Of a stretch of 64,000 nucleotides of DNA, positions 9,577 through 48,567 are shown piece after piece. Below the pieces are notes generated by a model. That model was not told where the DNA came from, did no database searches, and worked only from the letters and a program-made list of their open reading frames with translations. Where the stretch lies: assembly GCF_031202305.1 (NCBI RefSeq), contig NZ_CP101731.1, forward strand, positions 3,336,001-3,400,000, given 5' to 3'. This DNA is from Pelagibacterium sp. 26DY04 (GTDB lineage Bacteria; Pseudomonadota; Alphaproteobacteria; Rhizobiales; Devosiaceae). The position numbers and the translations under genes were made by a program. Every line of letters begins with the position of its first letter. The first letter of the stretch is position 1.

Positions 9577-9598
9577 CTTATGCCGATATCGGCATAAG
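9577..9598. repeat. Perfect 22-bp palindrome at the left junction of RIT element 2
   Basis: The half-site CTTATGCCGAT is followed by its exact reverse complement. It lies between ardC sequence and the terminal repeat. It contains the CGGCATAA block that recurs inside the terminal repeats. The right junction lacks it. It looks like a recombinase core site or a product of end joining. Confidence 0.7.
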
Positions 9599-9600
9599 GC

Positions 9601-9710
9601 CCATTATGCCGTGACCCGGATTATGCCGCATGGCCGAGTTGGATAGCTGGTTTGCCGTGGTTCGGCCATGCAGCGGTTCGGCATAATCAGAGCGATTCCA
9701 GGAATGCGAG
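9601..9710. repeat. RIT element 2 terminal inverted repeat, left (110 bp)
   Basis: It matches the reverse complement of 48459-48567 with about five differences. It holds ATTATGCCG twice as direct copies (9603 and 9620 regions) and once inverted (near 9680). Its inner end includes the last eight codons of the RitC gene. Confidence 0.9.
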
Positions 9711-10679
9711 CAACTCGTCGTTGGGACGATACCGCCCTAGATGCGTTTCGGGGCTGGCGACCTGCGCGAGCGCCTTTTCCTTCAGCCGCATGTCGGCGTG
9801 GATATAGATCTGGGTTGTTTCCACGGATTCGTGCCCGAGCCACAGTGCGATCACGGATTGGTCGACGCCATGATGGAGCAATTCCATTGCCGTGCTATGG
9901 CGCAGCGTGTGTGGCGTGACGCGTTTACCTGCGAGGCTCGGGCAATCTCGCGCTGCCGTCAGGCAATGCTTGCGCACCAGGTGCTCCAAAGCATCACGGC
10001 TGAGCCGCTCGCCACGGATCGACGGGAACAATGGCCCGTCGCCGTCACGGCGTTCGCCCATCCAGGCCTGGATCAGTTTCGCCGTATCGCGACGAAGAGG
10101 CGTCGTGCGTTCTTTTCGCCCCTTGCCGATGCAGCGGATGTAAGCGCCGGTGCCGAGAACCACGTCCTTGCAACGCAGGTTGATCAGTTCGGACGCCCGC
10201 AGCCCGGTCTGAAGTGCAAGCACCAGCAGGACGTGATCTCGCCGCCCCACCCACGTCGTTCGATCCGGCGCGGCCAGCAGCGCCGCTGTCTCCTGAACGT
10301 CGAGGAACGTCACGCTCCGCTTCACGTACCGCTTGTTCGGCATGGAGAGAATGCGCTGGCAATGAAGCAGCCAACTCGGGTCGGTCAATGTAACGTATCG
10401 GAAGAACGAGCGGATGGCAGCGAGACGCGTATTGCGGGTGCGTGCTGTGTTGCCGCGCGCCGTTTCCATATGGGTCAGGAAGTCGGCGACAAGATCGGCA
10501 TCGAGATCTTCGATCGTCAGCTTCGTGGGCGACTTTCCACACCGTGAACTTGCGTACTGAATCAGAAGCCGGAATGTGTCCCGGTAGCCAGCGACGGTGC
10601 GGCGGCTCGCTTCCATCTGTGTGCAGAGCCGATCGGTAAAGAAGCGCTGGATCAGCGTGGGGAAGTTGGTCGCCTTCAT
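9687..10679 (-). CDS. RIT element 2 third tyrosine recombinase (RitC)
   Basis: A 330-residue tyrosine recombinase. Start MKATNFPTLIQRFFTDRLC at 10679 overlaps the upstream gene (ATGA). The core-binding domain (ASRRTVAGYRDTFRLLIQYA) is followed by a catalytic domain with Arg in LQTGLRASELINL, Lys in IGKGRKERTTP, the TPHTLRHSTAM box, ALWLGHESVETTQ and Tyr in IYIHAD. All residues are intact, unlike the frameshifted RitC of element 1, with which it shares the ending DELLAFLESL versus SVLAWLDTL. The last codons fall inside the terminal repeat. Confidence 0.9.
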   Translation of the reverse strand: MKATNFPTLIQRFFTDRLCTQMEASRRTVAGYRDTFRLLIQYASSRCGKSPTKLTIEDLDADLVADFLTHMETARGNTARTRNTRLAAIRSFFRYVTLTDPSWLLHCQRILSMPNKRYVKRSVTFLDVQETAALLAAPDRTTWVGRRDHVLLVLALQTGLRASELINLRCKDVVLGTGAYIRCIGKGRKERTTPLRRDTAKLIQAWMGERRDGDGPLFPSIRGERLSRDALEHLVRKHCLTAARDCPSLAGKRVTPHTLRHSTAMELLHHGVDQSVIALWLGHESVETTQIYIHADMRLKEKALAQVASPETHLGRYRPNDELLAFLESL

Positions 10680-11617
10680 CGACTTTCCTCCGCCGCCGCG
10701 CCCGTTATTCGAGCGGAGGCCAGTTCCAGCAGTTCGGGGACCGCTTCCAGATACCAATAGGTGTTGGCGGGGTTCGCATGACCGAGCCATGTCGTAAGCT
10801 TGATCATCTCGCGTCCAACATCTTTGCCCGACCGATACCAACTCAGCATGGTACGCACCGCAAAGGTGTGACGAAGATCATGGATGCGCGGGCCGCGGCC
10901 GTGCCGAAGATAAATCTGCGGCTCTCGCAGCCCGATCTGCTGGCATACATGGGCGAAGTTGTAGCGCGCATTGCAGTCGCCAAGACGACGCCCCTCACAG
11001 TTCACGAAGAATGCTTCCGGCCTGCGCCCGAGCAGTCGATCCCGCTCGCCGCCGTAACTTTCCAGCCGTTCCACGACGCTCGGGTCCAGCGGCAGCAACC
11101 GCTCCTTGCCGAGCTTGCCCTGCCGGACATGAAGCACACCGGATTCGACATCGAGATCGGCAGGGTCGAGACCGAGAGCTTCGCTGATCCGAAGTCCGGT
11201 CACGGCGATCAGGCCGAACAGCGTCGAGCACGTCAGGCCATGCAGGCCGTAGACCGATGGCAGCATTCGCGCATGCTCGATGATCGCGACGATTTCGGCA
11301 TCATTATAAATATATGGATGCACACGTTGAACGCGACCGGGCACCAATCCCCGGGGCGGGGCCTCGTTCCGGGGGTCTATGCCATGCATCCACTCGGCAA
11401 ACTGGCCGGCTACCCTGAAGCGTGTTGCCCGCGTTCCGGGCCTTGCAGAGGGCAGACTTTCAAGCCAGCGCATGATCAGGCTGGCGCTGACTTGCTGTGC
11501 GCCGTCGTTGTCGGCGAAGGTGACGAAGCGGCGTAATATCCGTCCATCGGTGGTCATGGCAGTGCCGAGCTGCCTTCTGACGGTCAGATAGCGGTCCATT
11601 TCGGCAAGGAAGCTCAT
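10676..11617 (-). CDS. RIT element 2 second tyrosine recombinase (RitB)
   Basis: A 313-residue tyrosine recombinase starting MSFLAEMDRYLTVRRQLGTA, with GGAGGTGG upstream of the ATG. Catalytic residues: Arg in VTGLRISEALGL, Lys in VRQGKLGKERLLP, the HDLRHTFAVR box, TTWLGHANPANTY and a following YWYLEA tyrosine. It overlaps both partners by four bases. It is about 140 residues shorter than its counterpart in element 1, so the two trios are different lineages and not recent copies of each other. Confidence 0.9.
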   Translation of the reverse strand: MSFLAEMDRYLTVRRQLGTAMTTDGRILRRFVTFADNDGAQQVSASLIMRWLESLPSARPGTRATRFRVAGQFAEWMHGIDPRNEAPPRGLVPGRVQRVHPYIYNDAEIVAIIEHARMLPSVYGLHGLTCSTLFGLIAVTGLRISEALGLDPADLDVESGVLHVRQGKLGKERLLPLDPSVVERLESYGGERDRLLGRRPEAFFVNCEGRRLGDCNARYNFAHVCQQIGLREPQIYLRHGRGPRIHDLRHTFAVRTMLSWYRSGKDVGREMIKLTTWLGHANPANTYWYLEAVPELLELASARITGAAAEESR

Positions 11618-12833
11618 CGTGCCACCTCCGCGACAGGCCAAGGCTGGGCAATAGAACGCAGCCCGTCCGTATCGAGCTTGGCGTAGATCATCGTCGTCGC
11701 CCGCGATCGATGCCGCAGCAGATCGCCGATCTCTTCCAATGACGCACCGGCGCGAACCATGTTCGTCGCCAGGCTGTGACGCAGAACATGCGATCCGACA
11801 TAGGGTGTCGGGGGCTTTACGCCCGTCGCCGCGAACGCCTCCTTCAATATGGTGTTGATGACCTGGCTGTCCTTAAACGGACGGTTGGGTGCCCGATGCG
11901 TCACGAACAACATGCGCGTGGTCGCTGAAGTTCGCTCCTCCTGCAAATACCGAATGATGGCTTCGCCGACGTCCGGCGGGATTGGCAACCGATCATGTTG
12001 CTGCCCTTTTCCACGAACCATCAGTTCGCCGGCGCGCCAGTCTATGTCGTCCAACTGGATCGCCATCACTTCCGGAGCGCGCAGGCCGAGACGAGCCATC
12101 AGCAACAGCATGGCGTAGTCGCGGGCACCACGCCGCGGATTGGTGCGCACCGACGCCACGACGGCCTCCACCTCATCAGGCGACAGATAACGAGGAAGCC
12201 TCGCGCCCCAAGGTTTGTGGACTCTGGGGACGCAGAGCGAGAGGTTGGTCGTCGTGAAGCCCTGGGCGAACAGATACTGAAAGAAGCTGCGCAGATGCGT
12301 GGCCGGCGTCTTGTCGCGGAACGGGCGCTTGCGTGAGAGAAGGTCCTCCATGAACGCCACGACATCCTGCACGTTCAGCGCCGGCAGGTCGAGCATGTGG
12401 TCGCCGAAGCGATGATCGAGAAAGCGATCCGCGAACCGGAGCACATGATAGATCGTACGCGGGCTGAGACCGCGTTGCCGTAGAAGATAGGTTTCGAAGT
12501 TGCTCAGCAACTCGGCACGCTCGGCCTGCGCAGGTGTCAGCGGCGGTCGTGTTGCCACGCCGATTTCAATGAGATGTGCGACGAACATCCTGGCAAGATT
12601 GAGAACCTTGATCTGGCTCTTCGGTGTCGTTGGCAATCGCCGTCCCAATTCGACGGCAAGATCTGGCGTCAACGCCGATGGCGCAATGGCCTCGTCATCG
12701 AGCAAGCGGCCGAAGCGTCGAAGCAATAGCGATAATTTTTCAGCGTTTCGGGTTTGTAGTTCCTGGAGGAAAGACTTTCCTCGAATGACGCGAAGTAGGG
12801 ATCGAGGCAGGTGGCCTGGTCGGCTATTTCCAT
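11614..12833 (-). pseudogene. RIT element 2 first tyrosine recombinase (RitA), frameshifted near its N terminus
   Basis: The C-terminal 370 residues are intact: MARLGLRAPEVMAIQ (Arg), VRGKGQQHDRLP (Lys), SHVLRHSLATNM (HxxR), LLRHRSRATT and IYAKLD (Tyr). The true N terminus, MEIADQATCLDPYFASFEES at 12833 with GGAG upstream, is in another frame. It runs to PETLKNY, where a run of five A on the coding strand (12736-12740) precedes a required -1 shift. The frame holding the main domain is open upstream only by chance. Restoring one base gives about 407 residues. It could be dead, a sequencing error, or slippage-dependent. Confidence 0.75.
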
Positions 12834-13036: not shown

Positions 13037-13393
13037 ATGAACGAACAACAAGCCCTCAGTGCATTTGCTGCGCTTTCCCAAGAAACGCGGCTGCGGATCG
13101 TTCGGCTGCTGGTGACGGCCGGACCCGATGGCATGGCCGCAGGCACGATCGGCGAGGCGATGGATGCTTCATCGTCCCGTATGTCGTTTCACTTGAGCCA
13201 CCTTGAGCATGCGGGACTGATTGAATCGCGCCGCGAGGGCCGGTCGATCATCTACAGCGCCACCTATCCAGCGCTCTCCGGTCTCGTCGAGTTTTTGATG
13301 CGGGATTGCTGCCAAGGTCATCCCGAAGTGTGCCAGCCAGCCGTTGCAGCTCTGACCTGCTGCGACCCAATCAAGAGTGATGCTCATGCCTGA
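13037..13393 (+). CDS. arsR: ArsR-family arsenite-responsive repressor
   Basis: A 118-residue winged-helix regulator starting MNEQQALSAFAALSQETRLR. The recognition helix region reads SSSRMSFHLSHLEHAGLI. Cysteines cluster at the C terminus (RDCCQGHPEVCQ and LTCCDP). This agrees with the ArsR type that binds arsenite through a C-terminal Cys pair rather than the helix-3 CVC motif. It heads the six-gene operon 13037-17403 and overlaps the next start. The operator immediately upstream supports autorepression. Confidence 0.92.
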   Translation: MNEQQALSAFAALSQETRLRIVRLLVTAGPDGMAAGTIGEAMDASSSRMSFHLSHLEHAGLIESRREGRSIIYSATYPALSGLVEFLMRDCCQGHPEVCQPAVAALTCCDPIKSDAHA

Positions 13394-13910
13394 CCCAATT
13401 TATAATGTGCTGTTTCTCTGCACTGGCAACTCCGCTCGCTCGATCCTTGCCGAAGCGATCTTGAACCAAATGGGAAATGGCCGATTCCGCGCCTATTCAG
13501 CCGGTAGCCAGCCCAAGGGACAGGTTCACCCGATGGCGATCGAGACGCTTCAACACTTCGATTTTCCGGCCGATGAGCTTCGCTCGAAGAGTTGGGACGA
13601 GTTTTCCGGCCCTTCGGCACCGGTCATGGATTTCGTCTTTACAGTTTGCGACAACGCTGCCGGCGAAGCCTGCCCGATTTGGCCGGGGCACCCGATGACC
13701 GCCCATTGGGGCATTGAAGATCCTGCGGCAATTTCCGATCCGGTCGAACAACGGACGGCCTTCGTGACCGCCCTACGGTACCTGATGAACCGAATTTCGG
13801 CTTTTACTGCCCTGCCTGTCGCTTCTCTCGATAAGTCGTCCCTCAAGGTGCGGCTCAACGAAATCGGGCAAGCCGAAGGGGCGACCAAGCCCCGAAACAG
13901 CGCGGCATGA
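13386..13910 (+). CDS. arsC: Arsenate reductase, low-molecular-weight phosphatase type
   Basis: A 174-residue protein with the phosphatase loop CTGNSARS (Cys-x5-Arg) near the N terminus, then SAGSQPKGQVHP and a central VCDNAAGEACP segment. This is the thioredoxin-coupled arsenate reductase family, in which three cysteines relay electrons while arsenate is reduced to arsenite. I start it at MPDPIYNVLFL because this matches family N termini; a GTG nine bases upstream is possible. It overlaps the arsR stop by eight bases. Confidence 0.9.
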   Translation: MPDPIYNVLFLCTGNSARSILAEAILNQMGNGRFRAYSAGSQPKGQVHPMAIETLQHFDFPADELRSKSWDEFSGPSAPVMDFVFTVCDNAAGEACPIWPGHPMTAHWGIEDPAAISDPVEQRTAFVTALRYLMNRISAFTALPVASLDKSSLKVRLNEIGQAEGATKPRNSAA

Positions 13911-13917
13911 GGGTGGC

Positions 13918-14343
13918 ATGGACATTATCATCTACCACAACCCGGACTGCGGAACCTCACGCAACACGCTCGGCCTGATCCGCAATTCGGACGTCGAGCC
14001 GCATATCATCGAATACCTCAAATGCCCGCCAACGCGGGCGCGGCTCGTTGACCTCATCGCCCGTATGGAGATCACGCCTCGTGACCTTCTACGGGAAAAG
14101 GGCACGCCCTATGCCGAATTGGGTTTGGGCGATTCCTCGCTAAGCGATGAAGCATTGATCGACGCGATGATTGACCACCCGATCCTGATCAACCGGCCCA
14201 TCGTCATAACACCTGCCGGCGTGCGCCTATGTCGGCCCTCCGAAGCGGTTCTCGATCTCCTCCCGCCACAGCGCGGGGAGTTCGTCAAGGAAGATGGCGA
14301 GCGCGTCGTGGATCAGCACGGCCGCCGGGTCGCGTCTGCCTGA
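13918..14343 (+). CDS. arsC: Arsenate reductase, glutaredoxin-dependent type
   Basis: A 141-residue protein of the ArsC/Spx thioredoxin-like fold. The active site is [12 protein letters not shown], with the single catalytic Cys near residue 11. [20 protein letters not shown] is the conserved substrate-side segment. It reduces arsenate using glutathione and glutaredoxin and is unrelated in fold to the reductase just upstream. It lies seven bases after that gene, in the same operon. Confidence 0.92.
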
Positions 14344-14374
14344 TCCTCATACCCGATTGTATTGGAGAGTTCCC

Positions 14375-15445
14375 ATGGCTTCCTCTGAGCCAGCCTCCCG
14401 CCTGTCGTTTCTCGACCGCTATTTGACGGTCTGGATTTTCGCGGCAATGGCCCTCGGTGTCGTCCTCGGCACGGTGTTCACCGGTCTGCCCCAGGCGCTC
14501 AACGCCATGTCGGTCGGATCGACGAACATTCCGATCGCGATCGGCCTCATCCTCATGATGTATCCGCCGCTTGCCAAGGTGAAGTACGAAGAGCTGCACC
14601 AGGTCTTCGCAGACAAGCGCGTGCTGGTCCTCTCGCTCATCCAGAATTGGTTGATCGGCCCAACCCTGATGTTCGTCCTGGCCGTGATCTTCCTTCGCGA
14701 CTACCCCGAATACATGACGGGGCTGATCCTGATCGGGCTGGCCCGCTGCATCGCCATGGTACTCGTCTGGAACCAGCTCGCGCGCGGTGACAACCAGTAT
14801 GTCGCCGGCCTCGTCGCCTTCAACTCGATTTTCCAGATCCTGTTCTTCTCGACCTACGCATGGCTGTTCCTCACGGTTCTGCCGCCGTTCTTCGGCCTCG
14901 AAGGCAGCATCGTGGACGTCGGGTTCTGGACCATCACCGAGGCGGTTCTGATCTATCTCGGCATCCCGTTCCTCGCCGGCTTCCTGACGCGGCGCATCCT
15001 GATCGCCCGCAAAGGAGAAGGCTGGTACGAGCGGGAATTCCTGCCGCGCATCGGCCCGATCACGCTTGCCGCTCTGCTCTTCACCATCGTCGCCATGTTC
15101 AGCCTCAAGGGCGCCGATGTAGTGCGGCTGCCGTTCGACGCCGTGATGATTGCGATCCCGCTGACCATCTATTTCGTGGTCCAGTTCGTCATCAGCTTCG
15201 CCACGGGCAAGCTGATCGAAGCCGACTACCCCCGTACGACCGCGATTGCCTTCACCGCTGCCGGTAACAATTTCGAGCTGGCGATTGCCGTTGCCATTGC
15301 CGCGTTCGGCCTGGCTTCACCGGTCGCTTTTGCAGCCGTCATCGGTCCTCTGGTCGAAGTGCCTGTGCTGGTGCTGCTCGTTCACGTCGCGCTGCGTCTC
15401 GGCCGTCGCTGGTTTCCCGCGACCGCGCCCGCGACAGTCCGATAG
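14375..15445 (+). CDS. acr3: ACR3-family arsenite efflux permease
   Basis: A 356-residue membrane protein with about ten hydrophobic segments. The ACR3 hallmark [17 protein letters not shown] contains the conserved Cys needed for arsenite transport, and [18 protein letters not shown] is the second conserved region. Start at 14375 ([18 protein letters not shown]) with TTGGAGAG upstream. It exports the arsenite made by the two reductases. Confidence 0.93.
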
Positions 15446-15456
15446 GAGAGCTCATC

Positions 15457-16209
15457 ATGCCACTACGAACACTCATCGATCCCGATTACCTGCCTGCTCT
15501 CGATCCGCGTTTCGCAATCGAGCGGCCTGGAATTGGCTTGGGTCCGGCGGATCACCCTCCGCGCATCCTTCTGCTCTACGGATCGCTCCGGCCTCGGTCC
15601 TTCTCCCGGCTGGCGACGGAAGAAGCCGCGCGACTGCTGCAATTCTTCGGCGCGGAAACCCGAATTTTCGATCCGAGCGAATTGCCATTTCCCGATCAGG
15701 TGACGAAGGACGATCACCCCGCCGTCCATGAGCTGCGGGAACATGCGCTCTGGTCGGAAGGCATGGTTTGGTGTTCGCCGGAACGCCATGGTCAGGTCAC
15801 GGGCCTGATGAAAGCGCAGATCGATCATTTGCCGCTCTCGATCGGCAGTGTTCGGCCGACGCAAGGTCGGACGCTCGCGGTCATGCAGGTATCGGGCGGC
15901 TCTCAGAGCTTCAACGCCGTCAACACGCTCCGGCTTCTCGGCCGCTGGATGCGCATGTTTACGATCCCGAACCAGTCGAGCGTCGCCAAGGCTTATCAGG
16001 AATTCGATGAAAACGACCGCATGAAGCCGTCGAGCTATTACGACCGGATCGTGGACGTTATGGAGGAACTGGTCCGGTTCACCATACTGACGCGACCGCA
16101 TGCCGGTCAGCTCGTCGACCGCTACTCAGAGCGAAAGGCGGCAGCGCTAAAGCACGATCCAACGACCGACAAAAGCGCAATCAGCGCACCTCAAAAGCAG
16201 CCCGCATAG
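15457..16209 (+). CDS. arsH: ArsH, NADPH-dependent FMN oxidoreductase
   Basis: A 250-residue flavodoxin-like protein. [20 protein letters not shown] is the FMN phosphate-binding loop, [20 protein letters not shown] and [15 protein letters not shown] are typical ArsH segments. ArsH proteins oxidise trivalent organoarsenicals and reduce quinones or metals, depending on source. It follows acr3 by eleven bases, in the common acr3-arsH order. Confidence 0.93.
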
Positions 16210-16212
16210 ACG

Positions 16213-17403
16213 ATGGCCAGAGCGAATCGGCTGACGGTCCACGCTCTTGGCGTGGTGATGATCTTCACCTGGGGCAGCACCTACTATCTGATCGCCGTTC
16301 TTGCCGCGCCGATCGTTAACGATACGGGTTGGCCGCTTGAATGGGTGGTCGGTTCTCTTTCGCTCGGGTTGCTGGTCGCAGGGCTTTCCGCGCCTACAAT
16401 TGGGGATGCAATATCGAGACACGGCGGACGGCCAATTCTGGCGCTTGGCTGTCTCATTATCGCCGTAGGTCTGGCAATGATTGCGGCCGCGCCAAACCTG
16501 GCGATCTTCATGGCCGGGTGGGCGGTTCTCGGCATTGGCATGACCGCCGGGCTGTACGATGCCGCATTCTCGACCCTCGGCGGGATTTATGGCGAGAAGG
16601 CCCGTCCTTCGATCACAACGCTGACACTGTGGGGAGGCTTTGCGAGCACGGTTTGCTGGCCACTTTCAGCCGCTATGGTCGACGCGGTCGGCTGGCGTGG
16701 GGCTTGTTTCGCTTATGCGGCTATTCTCGTTGGCGTTTGTCTGCCCTTGACCCTCGCCATGGTGCCGCAAGCCACACGGCCGCTTAAACAGTCGAGTGTC
16801 GACGCCGATGCAACGCTCGTGCTCTCGCCTCGGGAACGAGCCATGTTCTGGCTATTCGCCTCGATCCAGATCATCGCAGGCCTGTTCGTCACGATCGTCT
16901 CGGTACATCTGCTCACGCTCCTGCAAGCCAGAGGCATATCCCTGGCCGAGGCGGTCACACTCGGCGCGCTGATCGGGCCAGCCCAAGTCGGCGCGCGGGT
17001 TCTGGAAATGCTCGGTCGCGGTCGCCATCATCCAATGTGGACGCTAAGTGCAGCGGTTGTTTTATGCGCTGGCGGATTGATCGTGCTAGCGGCAGGGCTG
17101 CCGATTGTTGGACTGGCGTTGATCCTCTACGGCGCAGGGAACGGCATCTTTTCGATCGCGCGAGGGGCGCTTCCGCTCAGTCTCTTTGGTCCGGGGCAAT
17201 ATGCACCTATCATGGGACGGCTCGCCCGCCCCGGCCTGATCGCTCAAGCTGCTGCCCCTATGGTCGGCGCAATTTTGATTTCCAGGCTTGGCTATGACGC
17301 TCTTCTTCATGTCATAGCAGCATTGGCGGCGATCAACGTCTTGATCGCCGGCATGCTTTGGCAGGTCGTTCGACAACGTCCGCTTGGAAGGGTTGACTGC
17401 TGA
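16213..17403 (+). CDS. MFS transporter of the ars operon
   Basis: A 396-residue major facilitator protein with about twelve membrane segments. It starts MARANRLTVHALGVVMIFTW three bases after the arsH stop. The loop between segments 2 and 3 (SAPTIGDAISRHGGRPILALG) is the MFS signature. MFS proteins at the ends of alphaproteobacterial ars operons can export arsenite or organoarsenicals (ArsK, ArsP-like roles). Which substrate applies here cannot be told from the sequence. Confidence 0.8.
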   Translation: MARANRLTVHALGVVMIFTWGSTYYLIAVLAAPIVNDTGWPLEWVVGSLSLGLLVAGLSAPTIGDAISRHGGRPILALGCLIIAVGLAMIAAAPNLAIFMAGWAVLGIGMTAGLYDAAFSTLGGIYGEKARPSITTLTLWGGFASTVCWPLSAAMVDAVGWRGACFAYAAILVGVCLPLTLAMVPQATRPLKQSSVDADATLVLSPRERAMFWLFASIQIIAGLFVTIVSVHLLTLLQARGISLAEAVTLGALIGPAQVGARVLEMLGRGRHHPMWTLSAAVVLCAGGLIVLAAGLPIVGLALILYGAGNGIFSIARGALPLSLFGPGQYAPIMGRLARPGLIAQAAAPMVGAILISRLGYDALLHVIAALAAINVLIAGMLWQVVRQRPLGRVDC

Positions 17404-38170: not shown

Positions 38171-38181
38171 ATGGTTTCAGT

Positions 38182-38893: not shown

Positions 38894-38896
38894 ACC

Positions 38897-39650: not shown

Positions 39651-39839
39651 ATGAAAACGCTCGTAGATTTCTGCCTGATGACCGGCCGCCGGGTTTCTCG
39701 CTGGGTCAATCGGCTGCTCCGCCGCCTGGCCCATAAGGGCCAGTTGCGGATCACCCTTTCCATCGGCATTCCGCTCCTTGCCCGGATCGAGCTCGCCTAC
39801 ATCATCGCGCTCGAGGGCGCGGCTGGAAAACCGGCCTGA
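39651..39839 (+). CDS. Small hypothetical protein (62 residues)
   Basis: A 62-residue basic protein (MKTLVDFCLMTGRRVSRWVN) with a hydrophobic C-terminal half (ITLSIGIPLLARIELAYIIA) that may be a membrane helix. A strong GGAAGGAG ribosome binding site and a terminator just after the stop argue that it is a real monocistronic gene. Function is unknown. Confidence 0.6.
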   Translation: MKTLVDFCLMTGRRVSRWVNRLLRRLAHKGQLRITLSIGIPLLARIELAYIIALEGAAGKPA

Positions 39840-41076: not shown

Positions 41077-41171
41077 TCACGCTCCTGGTGGCCGGGACCA
41101 TCAGACCACCTTTGGGGTTGATTGTTGCCTGCCAGACGCCGGAGCTTGGATCTTTCCATTGGGCCGAGCCA

Positions 41172-41645
41172 CTATGGGCGTGTCAGGAAACGCATTTCCC
41201 TCCTGAATGCATCGAATAATAAGAGCATAACCCCGAGCACGATCGCCGTGTCAGCAAGGTTGAAGGCAGGCCAATGAATTCCTCCGATATGAAAATCGAG
41301 GAAGTCGGTAACGCCGCTGTGACGTAGCCGATCGAGCATATTGCCCAAGGCACCTCCAATTATGAGGCCCAGAGCCACGGCCGTTATCGGTTGTCTTTCC
41401 CGGCTCGCCCATACCAAAAGCATAAGCACGATTGCCAGGGTGATTCCGACAAGGAGCCAAGGCGGCGCTTCGGTGAAAAGTCCGAAACTGACACCCGTGT
41501 TGCGCCCCAGGACCAAGTTGAAGAAGCCCGTGACGGATATTTCCGTATGGCCTTCCATCACTTGGATCGCCCACCACTTGGATAACTGGTCAGCTCCGAA
41601 GGCGATGGCGGCCGCGAGCGATGTATATTTTAGAACTCCACGCAT
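41172..41645 (-). CDS. lspA: Signal peptidase II
   Basis: A 157-residue membrane protein with four helices. The two catalytic Asp are in GALGNMLDRLRHSGVTDFLD and AFNLADTAIV. It cleaves prolipoprotein signals. Cargo-borne lspA copies are regular companions of Cd/Zn/Pb pumps (as in pbrBC systems). The start at 41645 is two bases after the ccdA stop; the longer frame upstream is ccdA DNA. Confidence 0.92.
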   Translation of the reverse strand: MRGVLKYTSLAAAIAFGADQLSKWWAIQVMEGHTEISVTGFFNLVLGRNTGVSFGLFTEAPPWLLVGITLAIVLMLLVWASRERQPITAVALGLIIGGALGNMLDRLRHSGVTDFLDFHIGGIHWPAFNLADTAIVLGVMLLLFDAFRREMRFLTRP

Positions 41646-41647
41646 CG

Positions 41648-42391
41648 TCAGCCGATCTGACCCAAAGCGGGGAAAGTAATCAGGAGCCAAATAGCGAAGC
41701 GCGTGAGTTGACCGGTCATCATGGCAAGTCCCATAACAATCATAATCACGCCCGCTAACACTCGTAAGTATCGGCCAGCCCAACGTAAGGTTGGCATGCC
41801 TGCAATGAAGCGCTGCATGAAAAGAGCTGCCAAGATAAATGGCACTCCGAGCCCCAAGGAGTACACAGTCAACAGGATTGCGCCGGTTCCGACAGTCGCA
41901 TTTGCAGCTGAAAGAGTTAGAATAGAGCCTAGTACCGGCCCAATGCACGGGGTCCAGCCAAAGGCGAAGGCCAATCCAAGCAGGTAGCTCGTCCAAGGGC
42001 CAGCAACGTGCGGCCGGGGATGAAATCGCATTTCACGATCAAACCACGGGATAGGCACCAAACCTGTTGTTACCACACCGAAAATGATAACGACCGCGCC
42101 GCCTATTAGGTTGGCTTCGTACAGGTAGGAGCGAAATAAGGCCCCCAATGCAGTTGCAGTAGCCCCTAACAACACAAAGATCGTTGTGAATCCGAGGACA
42201 AAATAAAGACTGTTGACGAGAGCCTGCCAGTTTGCCCTCAGACGATTTTGAACAGCAGGCTCCATGCGCGCGCCACCAGTGACGAACGAAATATAGCCGG
42301 GAACAAGGGGCAGAACGCACGGCGAAAGAAAGGAGATCGCCCCCGCAGCAAACACCGTTAGTAGGCCGACAAACGTGAAATCCAAATCCAT
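41648..42391 (-). CDS. ccdA: CcdA/DsbD-type thiol-reducing membrane protein
   Basis: A 247-residue protein with six membrane helices. The two reactive cysteines are in SFLSPCVLPLVPGY and FGWTPCIGPVLGS. This family moves electrons from cytosolic thioredoxin to periplasmic thiol proteins. Here it may reduce SCO, which lies upstream in the same operon. Its start directly follows the stop of the 36-codon ORF. Confidence 0.9.
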   Translation of the reverse strand: MDLDFTFVGLLTVFAAGAISFLSPCVLPLVPGYISFVTGGARMEPAVQNRLRANWQALVNSLYFVLGFTTIFVLLGATATALGALFRSYLYEANLIGGAVVIIFGVVTTGLVPIPWFDREMRFHPRPHVAGPWTSYLLGLAFAFGWTPCIGPVLGSILTLSAANATVGTGAILLTVYSLGLGVPFILAALFMQRFIAGMPTLRWAGRYLRVLAGVIMIVMGLAMMTGQLTRFAIWLLITFPALGQIG

Positions 42392-42502
42392 CTACTCCGA
42401 AGCGACTATCAGCGCCGCTGTCGCGGCGCTCCCTGTGATGAGCATCGCAGAAGCCCCAAAGGCACCTCTGACAGTGGGCGTCATCATCACATAATCGTTC
42501 AT
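42392..42502 (-). CDS. 36-residue membrane peptide ORF between sco and ccdA
   Basis: The start ATG overlaps the sco stop (ATGA). The stop lies directly before the ccdA ATG. The frame encodes MNDYVMMTPTVRGAFGASAM then LITGSAATAALIVASE, a single hydrophobic helix. It fills the whole gap between the two genes, which suggests a real translationally coupled micro-gene rather than spacer. No family is recognised. Confidence 0.5.
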   Translation of the reverse strand: MNDYVMMTPTVRGAFGASAMLITGSAATAALIVASE

Positions 42503-43119
42503 GCGCTACCCCCCGCCAAACGCCGGAGCTTCTGCAATCGGGTCTCGCGCGGCTCATGCATGTCGAGCGTGCCCACGAAATTGCTTTCGGCATCCATCAT
42601 GTAGACGCCGGCGGTGTGATCCATCGTGTATTCGCCCCCCTCCAGAGGCACTTTTCGCGCATAGGCGGCAAAGGCCTTCACCACGGCGTCCGTTTCTTGT
42701 CGATTTCCCCGCAGTGCGAGGATGCGATCATCAAAGGCTGTCATGTATTGAGCCAGCAATTCTTGGGTGTCCCGTTCGGGATCGACGGTGAAGAACAGTA
42801 CGTTGAACTGGTCAGCCACCGGCCCGAGCTCGTTCATGAGATCGCTTAGCTCAAAGAGCGTCGTCGGGCACACATCAGGACAATGGGTGAAGCCGAAGAA
42901 GGCAAGATAGGGTTTTCCAGCCAACACGGCATTGTCGATCGTCTCGCCTCGATGGGATGTGAGCTGGAACGGGCCGCCGATGGCTGCGATGCCTGTCGAG
43001 GACGCTACCGATACGGTTTGCTGTAGCCAGGGCTTGGACATAGACAGGCCGATGAAGAGCCCGCCGACGACGGCGACGGCAATCCAGGTAACTAGACGGA
43101 AGAGTTTGATGCCGCTCAT
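42499..43119 (-). CDS. sco: SCO-family copper-binding thioredoxin-like protein
   Basis: A 206-residue protein with an N-terminal membrane anchor (LVTWIAVAVVGGLFIGL). The copper site is FTHCPDVCPTTL (Cys-x3-Cys) with the partner His in TMDHTAGVY. SCO proteins deliver copper to, or reduce, the CuA site of cytochrome oxidase. It overlaps the PCuAC gene by four bases. The SCO-PCuAC pair is a known functional set. Confidence 0.92.
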   Translation of the reverse strand: MSGIKLFRLVTWIAVAVVGGLFIGLSMSKPWLQQTVSVASSTGIAAIGGPFQLTSHRGETIDNAVLAGKPYLAFFGFTHCPDVCPTTLFELSDLMNELGPVADQFNVLFFTVDPERDTQELLAQYMTAFDDRILALRGNRQETDAVVKAFAAYARKVPLEGGEYTMDHTAGVYMMDAESNFVGTLDMHEPRETRLQKLRRLAGGSA

Positions 43120-43619
43120 TGCGCCGGCTCCCCGTGCCCGTCATGCTCGTTCGTTGTGGCCGGACCTGCACCCATACCCTGCACGGCAAACTCGACCTCG
43201 ACGGTTCCGGCCTGCTCGAATGTGAGCTTCGCGGCAAACCGTTCCCCTTCCTTCAAAGGACGCGATGGCTTCATGAACATGATGTGCATACCGCCAGGCT
43301 GAAGCTCGACCGTCTCGCCCGCCCCGATCTCGACGCCATTTGGCACTGGCCTCATGCTAGCAACCCCATTGCTTACGGCCGACTCGTGGATCTCCACCCG
43401 TTCTGACAGGGGTGATGAGATCGACACCAGGCGGTCGGCTATGTCGCCATCGTTCGTCAGCGTCAGATAGCCACCGGCTACCGGCGTGACCGGCGGAGTC
43501 GCGCGCGACCACGGATGATTGATGGTGATCGAACCGGCTTGGAAGTCGTGGCCCACGGCAGGAGAGATCGTTACTGCCAGGACAAGGAAGGCGGCGGACA
43601 GGGCTCGTGCACTAATCAT
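43116..43619 (-). CDS. PCuAC-type periplasmic copper chaperone
   Basis: A 167-residue exported protein (signal SARALSAAFLVLAVTISPAVG). The Cu(I) ligands follow the family pattern: HESAVSNGVASM (His-x10-Met) and GGMHIMFM (His-x-Met). A His-rich tail (NEHDGHGEP) adds possible ligands. It passes copper to SCO or directly to the oxidase. It overlaps both the upstream CDF stop and the sco start. Confidence 0.92.
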   Translation of the reverse strand: MISARALSAAFLVLAVTISPAVGHDFQAGSITINHPWSRATPPVTPVAGGYLTLTNDGDIADRLVSISSPLSERVEIHESAVSNGVASMRPVPNGVEIGAGETVELQPGGMHIMFMKPSRPLKEGERFAAKLTFEQAGTVEVEFAVQGMGAGPATTNEHDGHGEPAQ

Positions 43620-44226
43620 ATTGTTTTCCTTTTTCTCCAGCTTCCCCGGCTTTCTCAAGAATTTCGAGGCCGCTTCTGACGACGACAACAACCACGCCCA
43701 AGCCAATGATCAGATCCGGGTAGGGCGAGCTGAAAAGGATCACGGCAAGACCCGAAACAGCGATCGCCGAGTTCACGAGCATGTCGTTTGTCGTGAAAAT
43801 CCATGAGGCCTGCAAATGCACGCCGCCTTCGCGATGCGATTTCAGGAACCACATGCAGGCCATATTCGTCAGAGCGCTCGCGATCGCCACGGCAATCATG
43901 ATCGGCCCTATTGGATCTGAGCCAGTAAAGAAGCGTCTGCCGACTTCAAGCAGAAGGAGGCCGGCGAATACCATCAGAAGGACACCCGACAACCGGGCAA
44001 CTCGAACTTTCGCCGCCAATCCCCGCCCCACAACGAAAAGGCTGATGGCGTAGACACCTGCGTCGCCAAGATTATCGAGCGCGGAACCCATCAGTCCTGT
44101 TGACTGGGCCCACCAACCCAGGCTTCCTACAATGGCCGCTTGGGCAGTATTGATCGCAAGCACCCATGCGAGCGCCCATTGTTCGCTCTTCTCAGATGAT
44201 TTTGCTTTCCGGGGCTGACTACTCAT
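43612..44226 (-). CDS. Short CDF-type cation transporter
   Basis: A 204-residue membrane protein of the cation diffusion facilitator fold. The Asp pair of the metal site is in GSALDNLGDAGVYAIS, and HREGGVHLQASWIFTTNDML is the segment with the second site (Asp). It ends right after the sixth helix, so it lacks the cytosolic C-terminal dimerisation domain of CzcD (about 300 residues). Such short forms are known near Cd/Zn regulators. It probably exports Zn, Cd or related divalent cations. A damaged relative lies at 48.24-48.44 kb. Confidence 0.82.
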   Translation of the reverse strand: MSSQPRKAKSSEKSEQWALAWVLAINTAQAAIVGSLGWWAQSTGLMGSALDNLGDAGVYAISLFVVGRGLAAKVRVARLSGVLLMVFAGLLLLEVGRRFFTGSDPIGPIMIAVAIASALTNMACMWFLKSHREGGVHLQASWIFTTNDMLVNSAIAVSGLAVILFSSPYPDLIIGLGVVVVVVRSGLEILEKAGEAGEKGKQYD

Positions 44227-44292
44227 AATTTACACATCGGCTTTCTCGGCAGGAAGCAGAAGCCGCAACCTGCACGCGCTCACTGTTTAAGC

Positions 44293-46425
44293 TCATTTGT
44301 CGCGGGTGCCGCGCCACGCGAGAAGGCGCAGCGCATTGGCCGTGACGAGGACCGTAGCGCCCGTATCGGCAAGGATGGCCATCCAGAGCGTGGTAACGCC
44401 CAACAGAGTCGTCACGAGGAAAACCGCCTTCAGTCCAAGGGCTAATGCGATGTTCTGCCAGATATTGCCGAGCGTGGCCTGCGACAACCCGATGAGATCG
44501 GCGATACCCGTCACCCGGTTTTTAAGCAGCGCCGCATCGGCGGTTTCCAGCGCTACGTCGGTGCCCGCGCCCATGGCAACGCCAACAGAAGCCGCAGCAA
44601 GCGCCGGCGCGTCATTGATACCGTCTCCAACCATGGCAATCGGCCCTTCAGCCTTTAATCGCCCGATTTCGGCAAGCTTGGCATCGGGCAGTAGTTCGGC
44701 TCTCGCCTCAAGACCGAGATGAGCCGCGATGGCGTCGGCCATGCGCTTGTTGTCGCCGGTCAGCATCAGAGGGCGCACACCGCGGTCCGTCAGCCGCTTC
44801 ACACCTTCGATAGAGTCATCGCGTGGCTCGTCGCGCAACCCGATCAATCCCTCGACGGTCTTGCCCTTTGTAAGCACGACGACCGTCTTGCCCTGGCTTT
44901 CCAGCGTGGTAATCGTCTGGGCGATGCTCTCTTCAAGGGCGGCCTGTTCGGCCGCGTGGCGGGGAGACCCGACCGAAGCGAAGCCGTCCTTCAACCGCGC
45001 TGTGACGGCCTTGCCGGGTGTGGCCATGCCGCCTCCGAAGGTGGCGGGCAATTCGAGCCCGCGCGCCTCTGCCGCCTCCACGATTGCGACCCCGAGCGGA
45101 TGGCTGGTGCTGCGCTCGACAGCCGCCGCGATGGCAAGGACGGAGTTCTCGTCACCTGTGATCGGCACAATGTCTGTCACCTGGGGACGGCCGCGCGTCA
45201 GCGTTCCCGTCTTATCGAAGGCAACGGTTATGACTTTGCCAAGTGTTTCCAGCGCCGCGCCGCCCTTGATCAGCAGGCCCTGCCGCGCGCCGGCGGCAAG
45301 ACCGGAGGCGATGGCCGCGGGCGTGGAGATCACGAGCGCGCAGGGGCACGCAATCAGCAGCGTGGCGAGGCCGCGATACACCCACGTCATCCAGTCACCA
45401 TCGAAGGCGAGCGGCGGCACGATAACGATCAGAGCCGCCACGACCATCGCGCCTGGCGTATACCACCGGCTGAAACGGTCGATCATGCGCGCCGTGGGGG
45501 CCTTTGATTCCTGGGCTTCCTCCACCATGTGGATTATGCGGGCTATGGTGTTATCGGCCGCGACATGGCTGATCGACACCCGCAGCTCGCCATTGGCATT
45601 GATGCTGCCGGCATAGACAGTTGCGCCGGATTCTTTCAGCACGGGCACGGATTCGCCTGTCACGGGAGCCTCATCGACCTCCGATACACCGTCGATCACC
45701 GTGCCGTCAGACGGCACACGGTCTCCAGGCCGAACAACGACGACATCACCGATGGCCAGCTCTTCGGCAGCGACCTTCTCAACGGCACCATCACGCTCGC
45801 GGAAAGCGACTCGGGGCACGAGATCGATCAGCGCCTCAATGCCTGCCCGCGCGCGGCCAGCCGCTACGGTTTCAAGCAGTTCGCCCACTGCGAACAGGAA
45901 GATTACGACAGCCGCTTCTTCGGCCTCGCCGATGCCGACCGCGCCCAGTGCTGCCACCGTCATCAGTGTCTCGATGGTGAAGGGCGAGCCAGACATCGCG
46001 CCGGCGATCGCCCGCCTCGCGAACGGGATGACGCTGATCAACGCCGCGCCTGAATAGAGCCATCGCTCCCATTCCGGCAGGAGACGTGCGAGAGCGAAGG
46101 CAAGGACGAACAGCGCGCCGGTAAGGAGCACAAGCCGACCCTTGCTGCCTTTCCACCATGCCTCTGTGATGCGCTTCCGAGGCGGACTCGCCTTTGGCTC
46201 GGCCTGCTCAATCACTGGGGTATAGCCGAGCGCCCGGATCTTTTGCTCAATAGCGGCGAGGGGCGTGCGGTCCTCGTCAAGACGCAATGCAAGCGTCTCG
46301 TTGGCGTAGCTGACATTGATGTCGCTAACGCCCGGCAGGCGTTGCATGGCCGTTTCGATTTTCAACGCGCAAGATGCACAGTCCATGCCTTCTACACGCA
46401 GTCTATAAGGGCTCGCTGCCGTCAT
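44293..46425 (-). CDS. zntA: Cd/Zn/Pb-exporting P-type ATPase (ZntA/CadA type)
   Basis: A 710-residue P1B-2 ATPase. There is one N-terminal metal domain (GMDCASC), then the membrane CPC motif (LIACPCALVIS), DKTGTLTRG, STSHPLGVA and [10 protein letters not shown]. The conserved Asp in the last helix (AILADTGATVLV) is the P1B-2 hallmark for divalent Zn/Cd/Pb rather than copper. A MerR-type promoter lies about 30 bases upstream. Confidence 0.94.
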   Translation of the reverse strand: MTAASPYRLRVEGMDCASCALKIETAMQRLPGVSDINVSYANETLALRLDEDRTPLAAIEQKIRALGYTPVIEQAEPKASPPRKRITEAWWKGSKGRLVLLTGALFVLAFALARLLPEWERWLYSGAALISVIPFARRAIAGAMSGSPFTIETLMTVAALGAVGIGEAEEAAVVIFLFAVGELLETVAAGRARAGIEALIDLVPRVAFRERDGAVEKVAAEELAIGDVVVVRPGDRVPSDGTVIDGVSEVDEAPVTGESVPVLKESGATVYAGSINANGELRVSISHVAADNTIARIIHMVEEAQESKAPTARMIDRFSRWYTPGAMVVAALIVIVPPLAFDGDWMTWVYRGLATLLIACPCALVISTPAAIASGLAAGARQGLLIKGGAALETLGKVITVAFDKTGTLTRGRPQVTDIVPITGDENSVLAIAAAVERSTSHPLGVAIVEAAEARGLELPATFGGGMATPGKAVTARLKDGFASVGSPRHAAEQAALEESIAQTITTLESQGKTVVVLTKGKTVEGLIGLRDEPRDDSIEGVKRLTDRGVRPLMLTGDNKRMADAIAAHLGLEARAELLPDAKLAEIGRLKAEGPIAMVGDGINDAPALAAASVGVAMGAGTDVALETADAALLKNRVTGIADLIGLSQATLGNIWQNIALALGLKAVFLVTTLLGVTTLWMAILADTGATVLVTANALRLLAWRGTRDK

Positions 46426-46456
46426 GGCGTCACCTCGACCGTTAGATGTGACACCG

Positions 46457-46487
46457 CAGATAGACCCTGTAGCAACTACAGGGTCAA
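46457..46487 (-). promoter_or_regulatory. CadR/PbrR-type promoter and operator for zntA
   Basis: On the minus strand -35 TTGACC (46482-46487) and -10 TATCTG (46457-46462) are 19 bp apart. The spacer is a perfect dyad with 10-bp arms GACCCTGTAG / CTACAGGGTC around three bases (46463-46485). Confidence 0.88.
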
Positions 46488-46559
46488 GGGCCGACCCTGT
46501 TTATTCCGTTTGCGGACGATCCATGTGCGAATTCGCCGCAGAACTTCATGCAAAGAGAC

Positions 46560-46591
46560 TTGACCCTGTAGTGGGTAGAGGGTGCAGTTAT
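46560..46591 (+). promoter_or_regulatory. CadR/PbrR-type promoter for dsbB-dsbA
   Basis: -35 TTGACC (46560-46565), an imperfect ACCCTGTAG...AGAGGGT dyad, and -10 AGTTAT (46586-46591) after 20 bp. An ATG at 46590 sits within the -10, so it cannot be the start of dsbB. Confidence 0.7.
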
Positions 46592-46643
46592 GCCCCACGC
46601 AAGGCTGATTGGAGCGAAACGAAACGATGCGAAAGCGAGTGCT

Positions 46644-47084
46644 ATGACCATCAGGGCGGGCACAACAGCAAATGCCTGGGGGTTCGTGTTCCTGGCATGG
46701 CTCGTCGCGCTTGCCGCCTCGCTTGGCGCTCTCTTCATTGGCGAGATCATGGGGCAGACGCCGTGCAATCTGTGCTGGCATCAGCGCGCCTTCATGTTTC
46801 CGCTGGCCGTCATTCTGGCCGTCGCTAGCTTTCGGAGCGACGCCAGCGTTTCTTGGTATGGGCTTCCACTCGCCGTCGTCGGCGCGGCCATAGCGGCGTT
46901 CCATTCCCTACTTTATGCGGGCATCATTCCCGCAGCCATCGAGCCATGTGGACGAGACGGCCCATCCTGTTCGAGCGCCGATATGACAATACTCGGCGTT
47001 TTGCCGCTCCCCTACCTATCGCTCGCCGCTTTCTTGAGCATCGCCCTTCTTCTCCTTCTCGCGCGCCGGAGGCGTTCAGCATGA
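46644..47084 (+). CDS. dsbB: DsbB-type disulfide oxidoreductase
   Basis: A 146-residue membrane protein with four helices. The first redox pair is TPCNLCWHQR (CxxC) and the second is CGRDGPSC in the other periplasmic loop. It re-oxidises DsbA and passes electrons to quinone. I start it at MTIRAGTTANAWGF because the upstream ATG falls in the promoter. The stop overlaps dsbA. Confidence 0.88.
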   Translation: MTIRAGTTANAWGFVFLAWLVALAASLGALFIGEIMGQTPCNLCWHQRAFMFPLAVILAVASFRSDASVSWYGLPLAVVGAAIAAFHSLLYAGIIPAAIEPCGRDGPSCSSADMTILGVLPLPYLSLAAFLSIALLLLLARRRRSA

Positions 47085-47740
47085 CCAGACGGTCCATCGT
47101 TTTTCTCACCGGCCTAGTCGCACTGATCGTCTTTGCCGGCGGTGTCTTTCTCTACGATCGCTACGGCGGCAATTCGGCACAGCCGGTTGCAGCGGCGCAA
47201 GGCGATGCGTTGGTCAGGGCACATTCGCCGATCATCGGCCCAGCAAATGCTCCCGTGACGATCGTGGAATTTCTCGACCCGTCCTGCGAAGCGTGCAGGG
47301 CTTTCTATCCAGCCGTTAAGCAGATCATGGCGAATTTTCCTGACGAAACGCGCCTTGTCATCCGATACACGCCCTTCCATGAGGGATCGGAGGAAGCCGT
47401 CAGGATACTGGAAACGGCCCGTCTTCAGGACCGCTTCGAACCCGTTCTGGAAGCGCTGCTGGCGCAACAGCCGGAATGGGCCGTGCATGGTGCGCCAGAT
47501 CTCGAAAAAGCCTGGGAGATTGCGGGGGCGGCGGGACTGGACGTCGAGCAGGCACGGCGTGAGATGTCCTCGGACGAGATCGATGCCGTTCTTGAGCAGG
47601 ACCTAGCCGACGTCCAAAGCAACAACGTCCGCCAGACGCCAACTTTTTTCGTTAATGGCCGGCCGCTGGAATCCTTCGGCCCGCAACAACTCTACGATCT
47701 GGTGCGTGAAGAGGTGGAGACCGCCAGAGCAACGCAATAG
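47081..47740 (+). CDS. dsbA: DsbA-family thiol oxidase
   Basis: A 219-residue thioredoxin-fold protein with an N-terminal membrane helix (IVFLTGLVALIVFAGGVFLY). The active site is DPSCEACRAF (CEAC), and the cis-Pro loop is RQTPTFFVNG. It introduces disulfides into exported proteins. Coupled to dsbB by an ATGA overlap and placed under a Cd-type operator, it probably repairs the periplasmic thiols that Cd, Pb or Hg attack. Confidence 0.88.
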   Translation: MTRRSIVFLTGLVALIVFAGGVFLYDRYGGNSAQPVAAAQGDALVRAHSPIIGPANAPVTIVEFLDPSCEACRAFYPAVKQIMANFPDETRLVIRYTPFHEGSEEAVRILETARLQDRFEPVLEALLAQQPEWAVHGAPDLEKAWEIAGAAGLDVEQARREMSSDEIDAVLEQDLADVQSNNVRQTPTFFVNGRPLESFGPQQLYDLVREEVETARATQ

Positions 47741-47783
47741 GCGAGCGATCAAGATCGACAAACACCCACATCGAACCTACGTT

Positions 47784-47806
47784 GACCCTGTATTCGCTAC
47801 AGGGTC
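47784..47806 (+). promoter_or_regulatory. CadR/PbrR-type operator at the regulator's own start
   Basis: GACCCTGTA and TACAGGGTC (perfect 9-bp arms, five-base centre) end five bases before the regulator's ATG, after a TTGACC. The -10 is poor (ACACCA), so this site may mainly repress. Confidence 0.75.
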
Positions 47807-47811
47807 ACACC

Positions 47812-48228
47812 ATGAACTCATCCATTCTGACGATAGGCCACCTTGCAAGGCAAACTGGCACCAAAGTAGAGACGATCCGGTTCTACGAGAAAAATGGCCT
47901 CCTACCGCAACCTTCCCGCACGGGGGGAAACTACCGCTCCTACGAGCAGGATCACCTTAATCGGTTGAGCTTCATCCGACGTGCACGAGAGCTCGGCTTC
48001 TCGCTCGATCAGATCAGGGAATTTCTCAACCTCGCTGACGATCGTTCGCAATCCTGCGCCGCCGTCGATGCGATCGCTAAGGCACATCGGAAGGAGGTCG
48101 AGCGAAAAATCGAAGACTTGGTTGCGCTCAAGTCCGAACTGGACAGGATGATTGACCAGTGTGGATGCGGCCTGGTCGCAGATTGCAGAATAATAGAGAG
48201 CCTGTCTCCGCTGCCAGCGAGAACCTAA
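47812..48228 (+). CDS. CadR/PbrR-type MerR-family regulator
   Basis: A 138-residue MerR protein (ILTIGHLARQTGTKVETIRF, wing LPQPSRTGGNYRSY). Metal ligands would be the Cys in DDRSQSCAAVDAIA and the C-terminal CGCGLVADC. These match the Cd/Pb/Zn group (CadR, PbrR, ZntR) rather than CueR's Cys-x7-Cys. It should bind the three ACCCTGTA-type dyads nearby. The start at 47812 is the only ATG before the helix-turn-helix. Confidence 0.88.
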   Translation: MNSSILTIGHLARQTGTKVETIRFYEKNGLLPQPSRTGGNYRSYEQDHLNRLSFIRRARELGFSLDQIREFLNLADDRSQSCAAVDAIAKAHRKEVERKIEDLVALKSELDRMIDQCGCGLVADCRIIESLSPLPART

Positions 48229-48239
48229 CGACCTGTGTC

Positions 48240-48440
48240 CCCGCAGCAGTCGGGCTTCTCGCTGCCAAGATCGTCGCGGCTATCGGTGACGTAATCATCT
48301 GGATCTCGGCGGAGAAGGCGGCAGGCACGGCAATTTCCGATAGCAGGCCGGATGCCGCCACGAACATCTTGGGCGCATGCAAGTGCATCCCGCCTTCGCG
48401 GAGCAGAGAATGTCGGCTCTTCGCTAATCCAAGCCGACAG
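48240..48440 (-). pseudogene. Remnant of a CDF transporter gene
   Basis: The minus strand reads LLREGGMHLHAPKMFVAASG, like REGGVHLQASWIFTTND of the intact CDF gene at 43612-44226, and the DNA is similar over about 150 bases (for example TGCAAGTGCATCCCGCCTTC versus TGCAAATGCACGCCGCCTTC). The Asp of the metal site is lost and there is no start. It suggests an older regulator-CDF arrangement beside the MerR gene. Confidence 0.45.
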
Positions 48441-48458
48441 TCAGCTTCCCACGCCATA

Positions 48459-48567
48459 CTCGCATTCCTGGAATCGCTCTGATTATGCCGAACCGCTGCA
48501 TGGCCGAACCCCGGCAAACCAGCCCCCAACTCGGCCATACGGCATAATCCGGGTCACGGCATAATGG
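48459..48567. repeat. RIT element 2 terminal inverted repeat, right (109 bp)
   Basis: Reverse complement of 9601-9710 with about five differences, including one 1-bp gap. It also contains the last codons of a RitC-type gene, although no recombinase gene lies beside it. Confidence 0.9.

Follow-up and report, generated by a model that had tools for sequence, protein, structure and literature searches.

A 39-kb Recombinase-In-Trio element with metal-resistance cargo in an ardC gene of Pelagibacterium, and its smaller relatives

Recombinase trio, ends and junctions in ardC

We analysed a 64,000-bp stretch of the genome of Pelagibacterium sp. 26DY04 (contig NZ_CP101731.1, positions 3,336,001–3,400,000; hereafter the window), in which a 39-kb block with a Recombinase-In-Trio (RIT) and metal-resistance genes interrupts an ardC gene (Table 1). 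The trio stands at one end of the block, as a preliminary description of this DNA had stated: ritC, ritB and ritA occupy 9687–12833 at the left end, with an ATGA overlap at both joints. RitA, RitB and RitC best matched the corresponding members of the Cupriavidus pHG1 trio, in order (40, 36 and 53% identity). We took the pHG1 trio as a RIT because the available parts of two papers name pHG1 as RIT-rich (PMC2864759, PMC3414803), an assignment by that name and not by matched gene numbers. All three window proteins keep the catalytic R, HxxR, H and Y columns (invariant GLR, HxLRH, LxH and Y).

The two ends of the block had been described as carrying the same sequence of about 110 bp in inverted orientation, and this was borne out. 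The repeats at 9598–9710 (+) and 48459–48570 (−) were identical at 107 of 113 positions (95%), with one gap and an E-value of 3e-48, whereas the best ungapped match of the left repeat to other minus-strand 113-mers of the window was 51/113. Chance repeats were rejected on this comparison. In the whole genome (one contig, 3.89 Mb), copies of the left end at E ≤ 0.001 were limited to these two repeats. The outer 27 bp, a variable 7-mer included, were the same at the left and right ends (27/27), and the left repeat overlaps the 3' end of ritC. Measured between the inverted repeats, the element spans 38,965 bp (9602–48566), with the palindrome at 9578–9597 in addition. That the 39-kb unit is known from a single genome could point to coincidental repeats or a misassembled block, but the score of the repeats over background, the single contig and the same end architecture in many records make such an artefact hardly credible.

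Terminal inverted repeats of about 28–34 bp, as in RITs, were found in the 39-kb element. It departs from the formula of about 3.5 kb with recombinases only, being 38,965 bp long with about 35 kb of cargo; that formula describes earlier RIT members and not a mechanism. Judged by protein homology to the pHG1 trio in order, by RIT-type gene order and by its ends, the 39-kb element is a RIT, as had been proposed.

The host gene is by name an antirestriction-type gene, and presumably has that role here. Its ArdC zincin domain (PF18818) was split, with profile positions 48–117 to the left of the block and 2–57 to the right. Both halves were nearest to one uninterrupted ardC in the same-genus genome G007 (94.6% for the N-half and 90.4% for the C-half; next-best relatives were L188 at 78.7% and L216 at 82.4%, respectively), and in that gene 3 nt separate the two matches. 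Because both halves point to the same allele, an origin from different genes was rejected. G007 is collinear in blocks with window positions 2–5553, 9409–9574 and 48565–64000, and is without 5554–9408 and 9575–48564, the latter being the borders of the insert by comparison with the empty site. We concluded from this collinearity and from the common nearest allele that the 39-kb block is exactly inserted in a single ardC gene. That is, both junctions lie in one host gene, as claimed beforehand, and the empty ardC site that was to be looked for in relatives exists in G007.

The same ardC is interrupted by a second, distant RIT-like trio 166 bp from the 39-kb insert, and is thus in three pieces. 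This trio has an inverted repeat (5554–5590 and 9343–9379; ends 34/39 identical) and a one-sided near-palindrome (9383–9402), which has 5 mismatches to the main palindrome and is mismatched to its own complement at 8 of 20 positions. A tRNA-Met gene (49607–49683) adjoins ardC. It likewise stands beside the uninterrupted G007 ardC and is therefore part of an older context; the region around it may be an older island at that tRNA.

Table 1. Features of the ardC locus and of the 39-kb element, in window coordinates
Feature	Position	Strand	Remark
Third, C-terminal ardC piece	5410..5553	-	Encodes ArdC residues to the stop; collinear with the uninterrupted G007 gene
Second, distant RIT-like trio	5554..9408	-	In the same ardC, outside the 39-kb unit; ritC-like gene truncated
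Middle ardC piece	9409..9577	-	After the HExxH cut; adjoins the palindrome
20-bp perfect palindrome TTATGCCGATATCGGCATAA	9578..9597		ardC-3' side
Left terminal repeat (ritC end)	9602..9710	+	Outer 27 bp (9602-9628) equal to the right end
ritC, tyrosine recombinase	9687..10679	-
ritB, tyrosine recombinase	10676..11617	-
ritA, tyrosine recombinase	11614..12833	-	Frameshifted at about codon 35 when compared with intact relatives
Arsenic operon	13037..17403	+	ArsR, two ArsC types, ACR3, ArsH, ArsK-like MFS
Ferric-reductase-like protein, copper P-type ATPase (19234-21312), DUF218, cytochrome c	17635..22707
CopA-like ATPase, multicopper oxidase, YtkA-like protein	23200..29790
DUF305 proteins, UmuC-/UmuD-like pair	31442..34635
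Plasmid-type genes, weak Phd-like antitoxin, DUF7673	34663..39839
SCO/PCuAC/CcdA copper block, Cd/Zn ATPase, DsbA/DsbB, MerR regulator	39979..48228
Right terminal repeat, ritC type	48459..48566	-	Retains 23 bp of the ritC 3' end
N-terminal ardC piece	48567..49214	-	Up to the HExxH cut

Survey of RIT ends and the integration signature

Relatives of the left end were found in 52 of 72,556 plasmid records. Fifteen of these 52 (40 listed) were examined, and 13 of the 15 had a pair of ends with Rit genes. The outer-end pattern CATWATGCCG-N7-SATTATGCCG occurred at 21 loci of the viral collection and at least 119 loci of the genome collection. Of the 385 genomes in a class-wide sample, 3 contained the exact pattern, one of them the window's own genome. 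Read backwards, the pattern was absent from the 36 and from the 385 genomes that were searched. Both the end profile and the motif were derived from the window's RIT family, which biases the survey.

Among the matches listed, 52 adjacent end pairs enclosed at least two Rit genes. They were counted without dereplication; L006/L015 and L023/L171 are the same elements, and several copies of one metagenome-assembled genome (MAG) were kept separate. Thirty-one pairs measured 3.0–3.7 kb, 20 measured 4.0–10.8 kb, and the window's pair measured 39.0 kb. The preliminary description had RITs as units of 3–4 kb holding recombinases only. RITs are usually about 3.4 kb long and free of cargo, but several of the pairs found here carry it. 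Not all of the 21 pairs above 4 kb hold true cargo, since L109 has only about 0.4 kb outside the trio span and some others contain insertion sequence (IS) genes.

A search for inverted end pairs that flank different cargo beside relatives of the trio had been suggested, and such pairs were found. Chromate resistance was identified in genome G008 (by Pfam), in P. halophilus (by DNA identity) and in Novosphingobium pSA3 (by annotation). A RIT of Paracoccus fontiphilus (L183, 2942–8080) carries a FabMG enoyl-ACP reductase gene, and further cargo comprised a catalase (Thioclava), an ABC transporter (P. halophilus) and a sulfate permease (Sinorhizobium). A 6,844-bp contig of a Sphingopyxis MAG (L164) is bounded by RIT ends and encodes a disulphide oxidoreductase and a MerR regulator; with the former read as a mercuric reductase, this is probably a mercury-resistance RIT. 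When 18 cargo open reading frames (ORFs) from 12 elements were compared with Pfam, 2 had no match, 1 had a sub-cut-off match only and 2 encoded DDE transposases.

Stretches beside single ends yielded extra pairs in Jannaschia (about 3.45 kb) and Sulfitobacter (about 5.7–5.9 kb), each with one mismatched end and outside the 52. In Microvirga and R. tropici a left end had no right end within about 49 kb. A Rit match was wholly absent from 5 of the 12 stretches, and orphan or decayed ends therefore exist. At loci L192–L195, L202 and L205–L207, no Rit gene was found within the 20–40 kb adjoining the end motifs, which are orphan or decayed. A 333-bp interval in a Kiritimatiellia MAG (L097, 51–383) has inverted RIT end motifs and no Rit gene, and looks like a non-autonomous (MITE-like) RIT derivative. 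Loci L049, L046, L034 and L031 of the viral collection are bare 3.34-kb RITs that have no ArdC flanks but flanks such as GGCTGGCAG, and a one-sided palindrome at 1–2 mismatches; from these flanks, other subfamilies seem to use other targets.

We scored a palindrome where the sequence just outside an end had at most 6 mismatches to TTATGCCGATATCGGCATAA, in the 46 pairs with both flanks long enough. The chance rate was 0.0016 per window 30-mer. The palindrome stood outside exactly one end in 36 of the 46 pairs (the ritC end in 19, the other end in 17), at both ends in 1 and at neither end in 9. Wherever one of the 36 one-sided pairs had ArdC-N and ArdC-C flanks, the palindrome was on the C side (16/16, window included), with ritC there in 13. 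A further N/C pair, L145, has a palindrome with 8 mismatches and is counted in the nine. The cut in ArdC falls at residue 234/235 of the L188 sequence, within HExxH.

The junctions carried a 6-bp pattern. The window has the G007 target sequence, GGGCCA, at its 5' junction and GACCCA at the 3' one. The chromate RITs of G008 and G586 keep TGTACA of the intact allele at the 5' junction and have GGTCCA at the 3' junction; the intact ardC allele for this insertion is present in the window's own genome, where it constitutes a second empty site. In P. halophilus, CTGTCA stands on the ardC-3' side in each of three palindrome-end (ritC-end) flanks, and three other-end flanks follow three different ardC genes, on contigs for which the pairing of flanks is not known. 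As far as these sequences go, the 6 bp at the 3' junction are apparently donor-borne.

Pairs L020, L060 and L180 are flanked by two ArdC N-halves, which places them outside the simple rule and among the nine with no palindrome at either end. The flanks of L178/L179 are likewise two N-halves, with no palindrome. Such flanks (L180, L178/L179, L060 and L020) may come from recombination between RIT copies in different ardC genes.

Mobility, cargo and origin of the 39-kb unit

The chromate RITs of G008 and P. halophilus were 99.93% identical over 5,945 bp, palindrome included, and the P. halophilus ends lie in three ardC genes other than the G008 one. A near-identical element in two species and in different ardC genes supports, by comparison of sequences, the mobility of cargo RITs. 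The 5,945-bp chromate RIT of G586 is 100% identical to that of G008 and lies in the same ardC allele; because of this shared allele a larger stretch may have been transferred, and we did not treat the G586 copy as an independent movement. A 5.69-kb Sinorhizobium element occurs on two plasmids (99.91% identical) in opposite orientation, in two ardC targets that are about 77–80% alike. This element has ritC tails at both ends, suggesting that movement is possible with two ritC-type ends.

The ends of 31 elements were compared for the share of ritC-tail positions kept at the right end. In 28 of the 31 this share was 38–65% (highest in L005 and L060), little above what unrelated sequences would reach in a gapped alignment. 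The share was 18/24 in the Sinorhizobium element (two records) and 23/24 in the window. The window's right end is therefore ritC-type and probably the stump of a second RIT that lay in the opposite orientation. The preliminary description had considered that the right repeat might belong to a separate, decayed RIT; this is probably so, yet the two junctions are the two sides of one ardC insertion.

Several parts of the cargo were found elsewhere. Positions 26074–29626 are 91.6% identical to Martelella pMM259, and 35476–35576, 35798–36031 and 38069–38897 are 84–92% identical to a 160-kb contig of G008. Genome G004 matches 39917–48456 at 95.8% and stops 3 bp short of the right repeat, on a 38.9-kb contig without a RIT end and with one remote recombinase match only (27%). 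Cargo pieces were found on plasmids of Martelella, Nitratireductor and Paracoccus, and other cargo modules on three plasmid stretches without RIT ends. A relative (G004) thus carries 8.5 kb of the cargo without the right-hand repeat, which, like the modules on these three stretches, qualifies the claim of a cargo transposon. The cargo inventory given earlier holds for ars, cop, umuDC-like and Cd/Zn/Cu genes, whereas the toxin-antitoxin entry came down to a sub-threshold Phd match. Direct repeats of 71 bp (38096–38166 and 39229–39299, 86% identical) lie 1.1 kb apart with the DUF7673 gene between them, and hold a short inverted repeat, CGAGGGAAG...CTTCCCTCG.

No transposase or integrase was found among the 47 distinct cargo ORFs chosen for Pfam scans, in agreement with the earlier statement that no DDE transposase or other integrase is visible. 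This bears on the idea that the block is a genomic island placed by a tRNA-linked integrase, IS or Tn3 elements, with the RIT as a passenger at one edge. The tRNA-Met beside ardC would fit such an island, as would related copper/cadmium modules that elsewhere adjoin a Tn3-family transposase and IS elements. However, the edges of the insert fall within about 3 bp of the RIT end or palindrome and the ardC site, and the tRNA-Met also accompanies the uninterrupted G007 gene. Placement by another integrase is largely refuted by the coincidence of the empty site with the RIT ends, and we consider it very improbable.

We lean slightly toward assembly of the 39-kb unit elsewhere, probably on a plasmid, followed by its entry into ardC as one unit; the plasmid-like cargo mildly favours this order of events. 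The unit would be a composite cargo RIT, its trio and its mosaic metal-resistance island enclosed by a pair of outward-facing RIT ends, of which the right one is a fragment of a second RIT's ritC end. Across the family, the recombinases would join both ends into a presumed circle that has the 20-bp palindrome at the joint, and this circle would recombine with an ardC at its HExxH codons through a 6-bp overlap. The target 6 bp would stay at the ardC-5' junction, and the donor 6 bp and the palindrome would go to the ardC-3' junction. The near-symmetric ends would permit both orientations.

Several observations weigh against this account. The window's ritA changes frame at about codon 35, upstream of the catalytic columns, whereas ritA is intact in G008, G586 and P. 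halophilus; the present-day trio may therefore be inactive. One copy of the 39-kb unit is known, the next largest pair among the matches listed is 10.8 kb, and no giant element was found in 40–50 kb beside single ends (8 records) or in 6–20 kb (4 more). The one pair with a palindrome at both ends and the nine with none depart from the one-sided pattern. The cargo modules also occur without RIT ends, and the right repeat is joined to the cargo where G004 runs into unrelated DNA. This joint looks like illegitimate joining, which is equally possible after insertion. With the ritA frameshift and no second copy, we put forward movement of the 39-kb unit as a tentative claim.

A possible alternative, to which we give less credence, is assembly in place. 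A small RIT would have entered ardC and a second RIT have landed beside it in inverted orientation, with the metal genes arriving by other recombination and the second trio being deleted, so that the block never moved whole. The ritC-type stump and the illegitimate-looking joint, with G004 diverging 3 bp before the repeat, are what this history would leave; it also accords with mosaic cargo known elsewhere without RIT ends, with an ardC that already holds two RITs, and with the lack of any other pair above 10.8 kb among the matches listed. In contrast, one main palindrome and one cut only are present, as in a single insertion. The window has no internal native right end, as matches to the end profile below E 3 were the two ends and their own reverse reading only. 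Nor is there a second main palindrome: both TTATGCCG and CGGCATAA are absent from the DNA that the repeats enclose.

The block had been proposed as a tyrosine-recombinase cargo transposon. The RIT identity, the mobility of cargo RITs by comparison and the empty site uphold this proposal in part, whereas movement of the 39-kb unit itself is what we infer from them. For the subfamily as a whole, we hold the following proposal in even balance: its members would be site-specific cargo transposons, whose palindrome-bearing circles enter ardC HExxH codons in either orientation and leave six donor base pairs as a signature. Any pair of ritC-type ends that face outward would then mobilise the DNA between them, from 3.3 to at least 39 kb, and so build multi-metal islands.

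Relation to known systems and significance

Published RIT ends consist of a 28–29 bp inverted repeat and an overlapping palindromic sequence, according to the available part of PMC3414803, and RitA is given two core-binding domains and RitC an extra C-terminal helix in that of PMC8138268. The window element resembles published RITs in its three adjacent A-B-C tyrosine-recombinase genes with ATGA overlaps, its terminal repeats and its palindrome. It differs in size and content (39 kb with cargo, against about 3.5 kb and no cargo mentioned in the portions of the papers at hand), in its ritC-type right end, and in an ardC target with an empty site. In two genera radC is interrupted by RITs, a printed hint of target preference (PMC2864759, in part), and a 2023 comparison lists RIT target specificity, empty site and movement as not tested (PMC10214605, in the sections available).

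Three other systems were compared, chiefly through those sections of PMC10214605. The strand-biased circularizing integrative elements (SEs) share tyrosine recombinases, cargo and imperfect inverted ends, and have the target 6 bp at one junction and the donor 6 bp at the other, a pattern seen in the RITs here. In this respect the latter work like SEs, but we did not file them as such; SEs carry IntA-Tfp-IntB-Srap in place of RitA-B-C, and these sections mention no palindrome for them. That all three window genes keep catalytic residues and match Rit proteins argues, indirectly, against an SE gene set. The Tn554 family likewise comprises transposons with tyrosine recombinases; they are target-specific, leave a 6-bp footprint with the target/donor pattern of the SEs and, by cited titles, carry resistance genes; its TnpA/B/C proteins and the lack of a mentioned ardC target set it apart by description. 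GInts are genomic islands with three integrase-like genes (PMC5385486, PMC10214605, both in part), but they have a four-gene ginABCD set whose third protein is without the catalytic motif (PMC10214605). All three window proteins keep catalytic residues, and the shortest ardC members have about 160 bp outside the trio, with no room for a fourth gene.

Cargo RITs, the ardC target and the one-sided palindrome rule were not found in the literature searched, which did not cover the main RIT papers, so that earlier mention is possible and priority for all three is uncertain. The data supply a precise target (the ardC zinc-motif codons), two empty sites, a one-sided palindrome, the 6-bp pattern and near-identical cargo copies, that is, all but a movement experiment. 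The integration signature makes cargo RITs easy to annotate. RIT insertion interrupts ardC, often on plasmids, and cargo RITs would spread genes for resistance to chromate, probably mercury, and here arsenic, copper and cadmium, mostly among Alphaproteobacteria in our sample.

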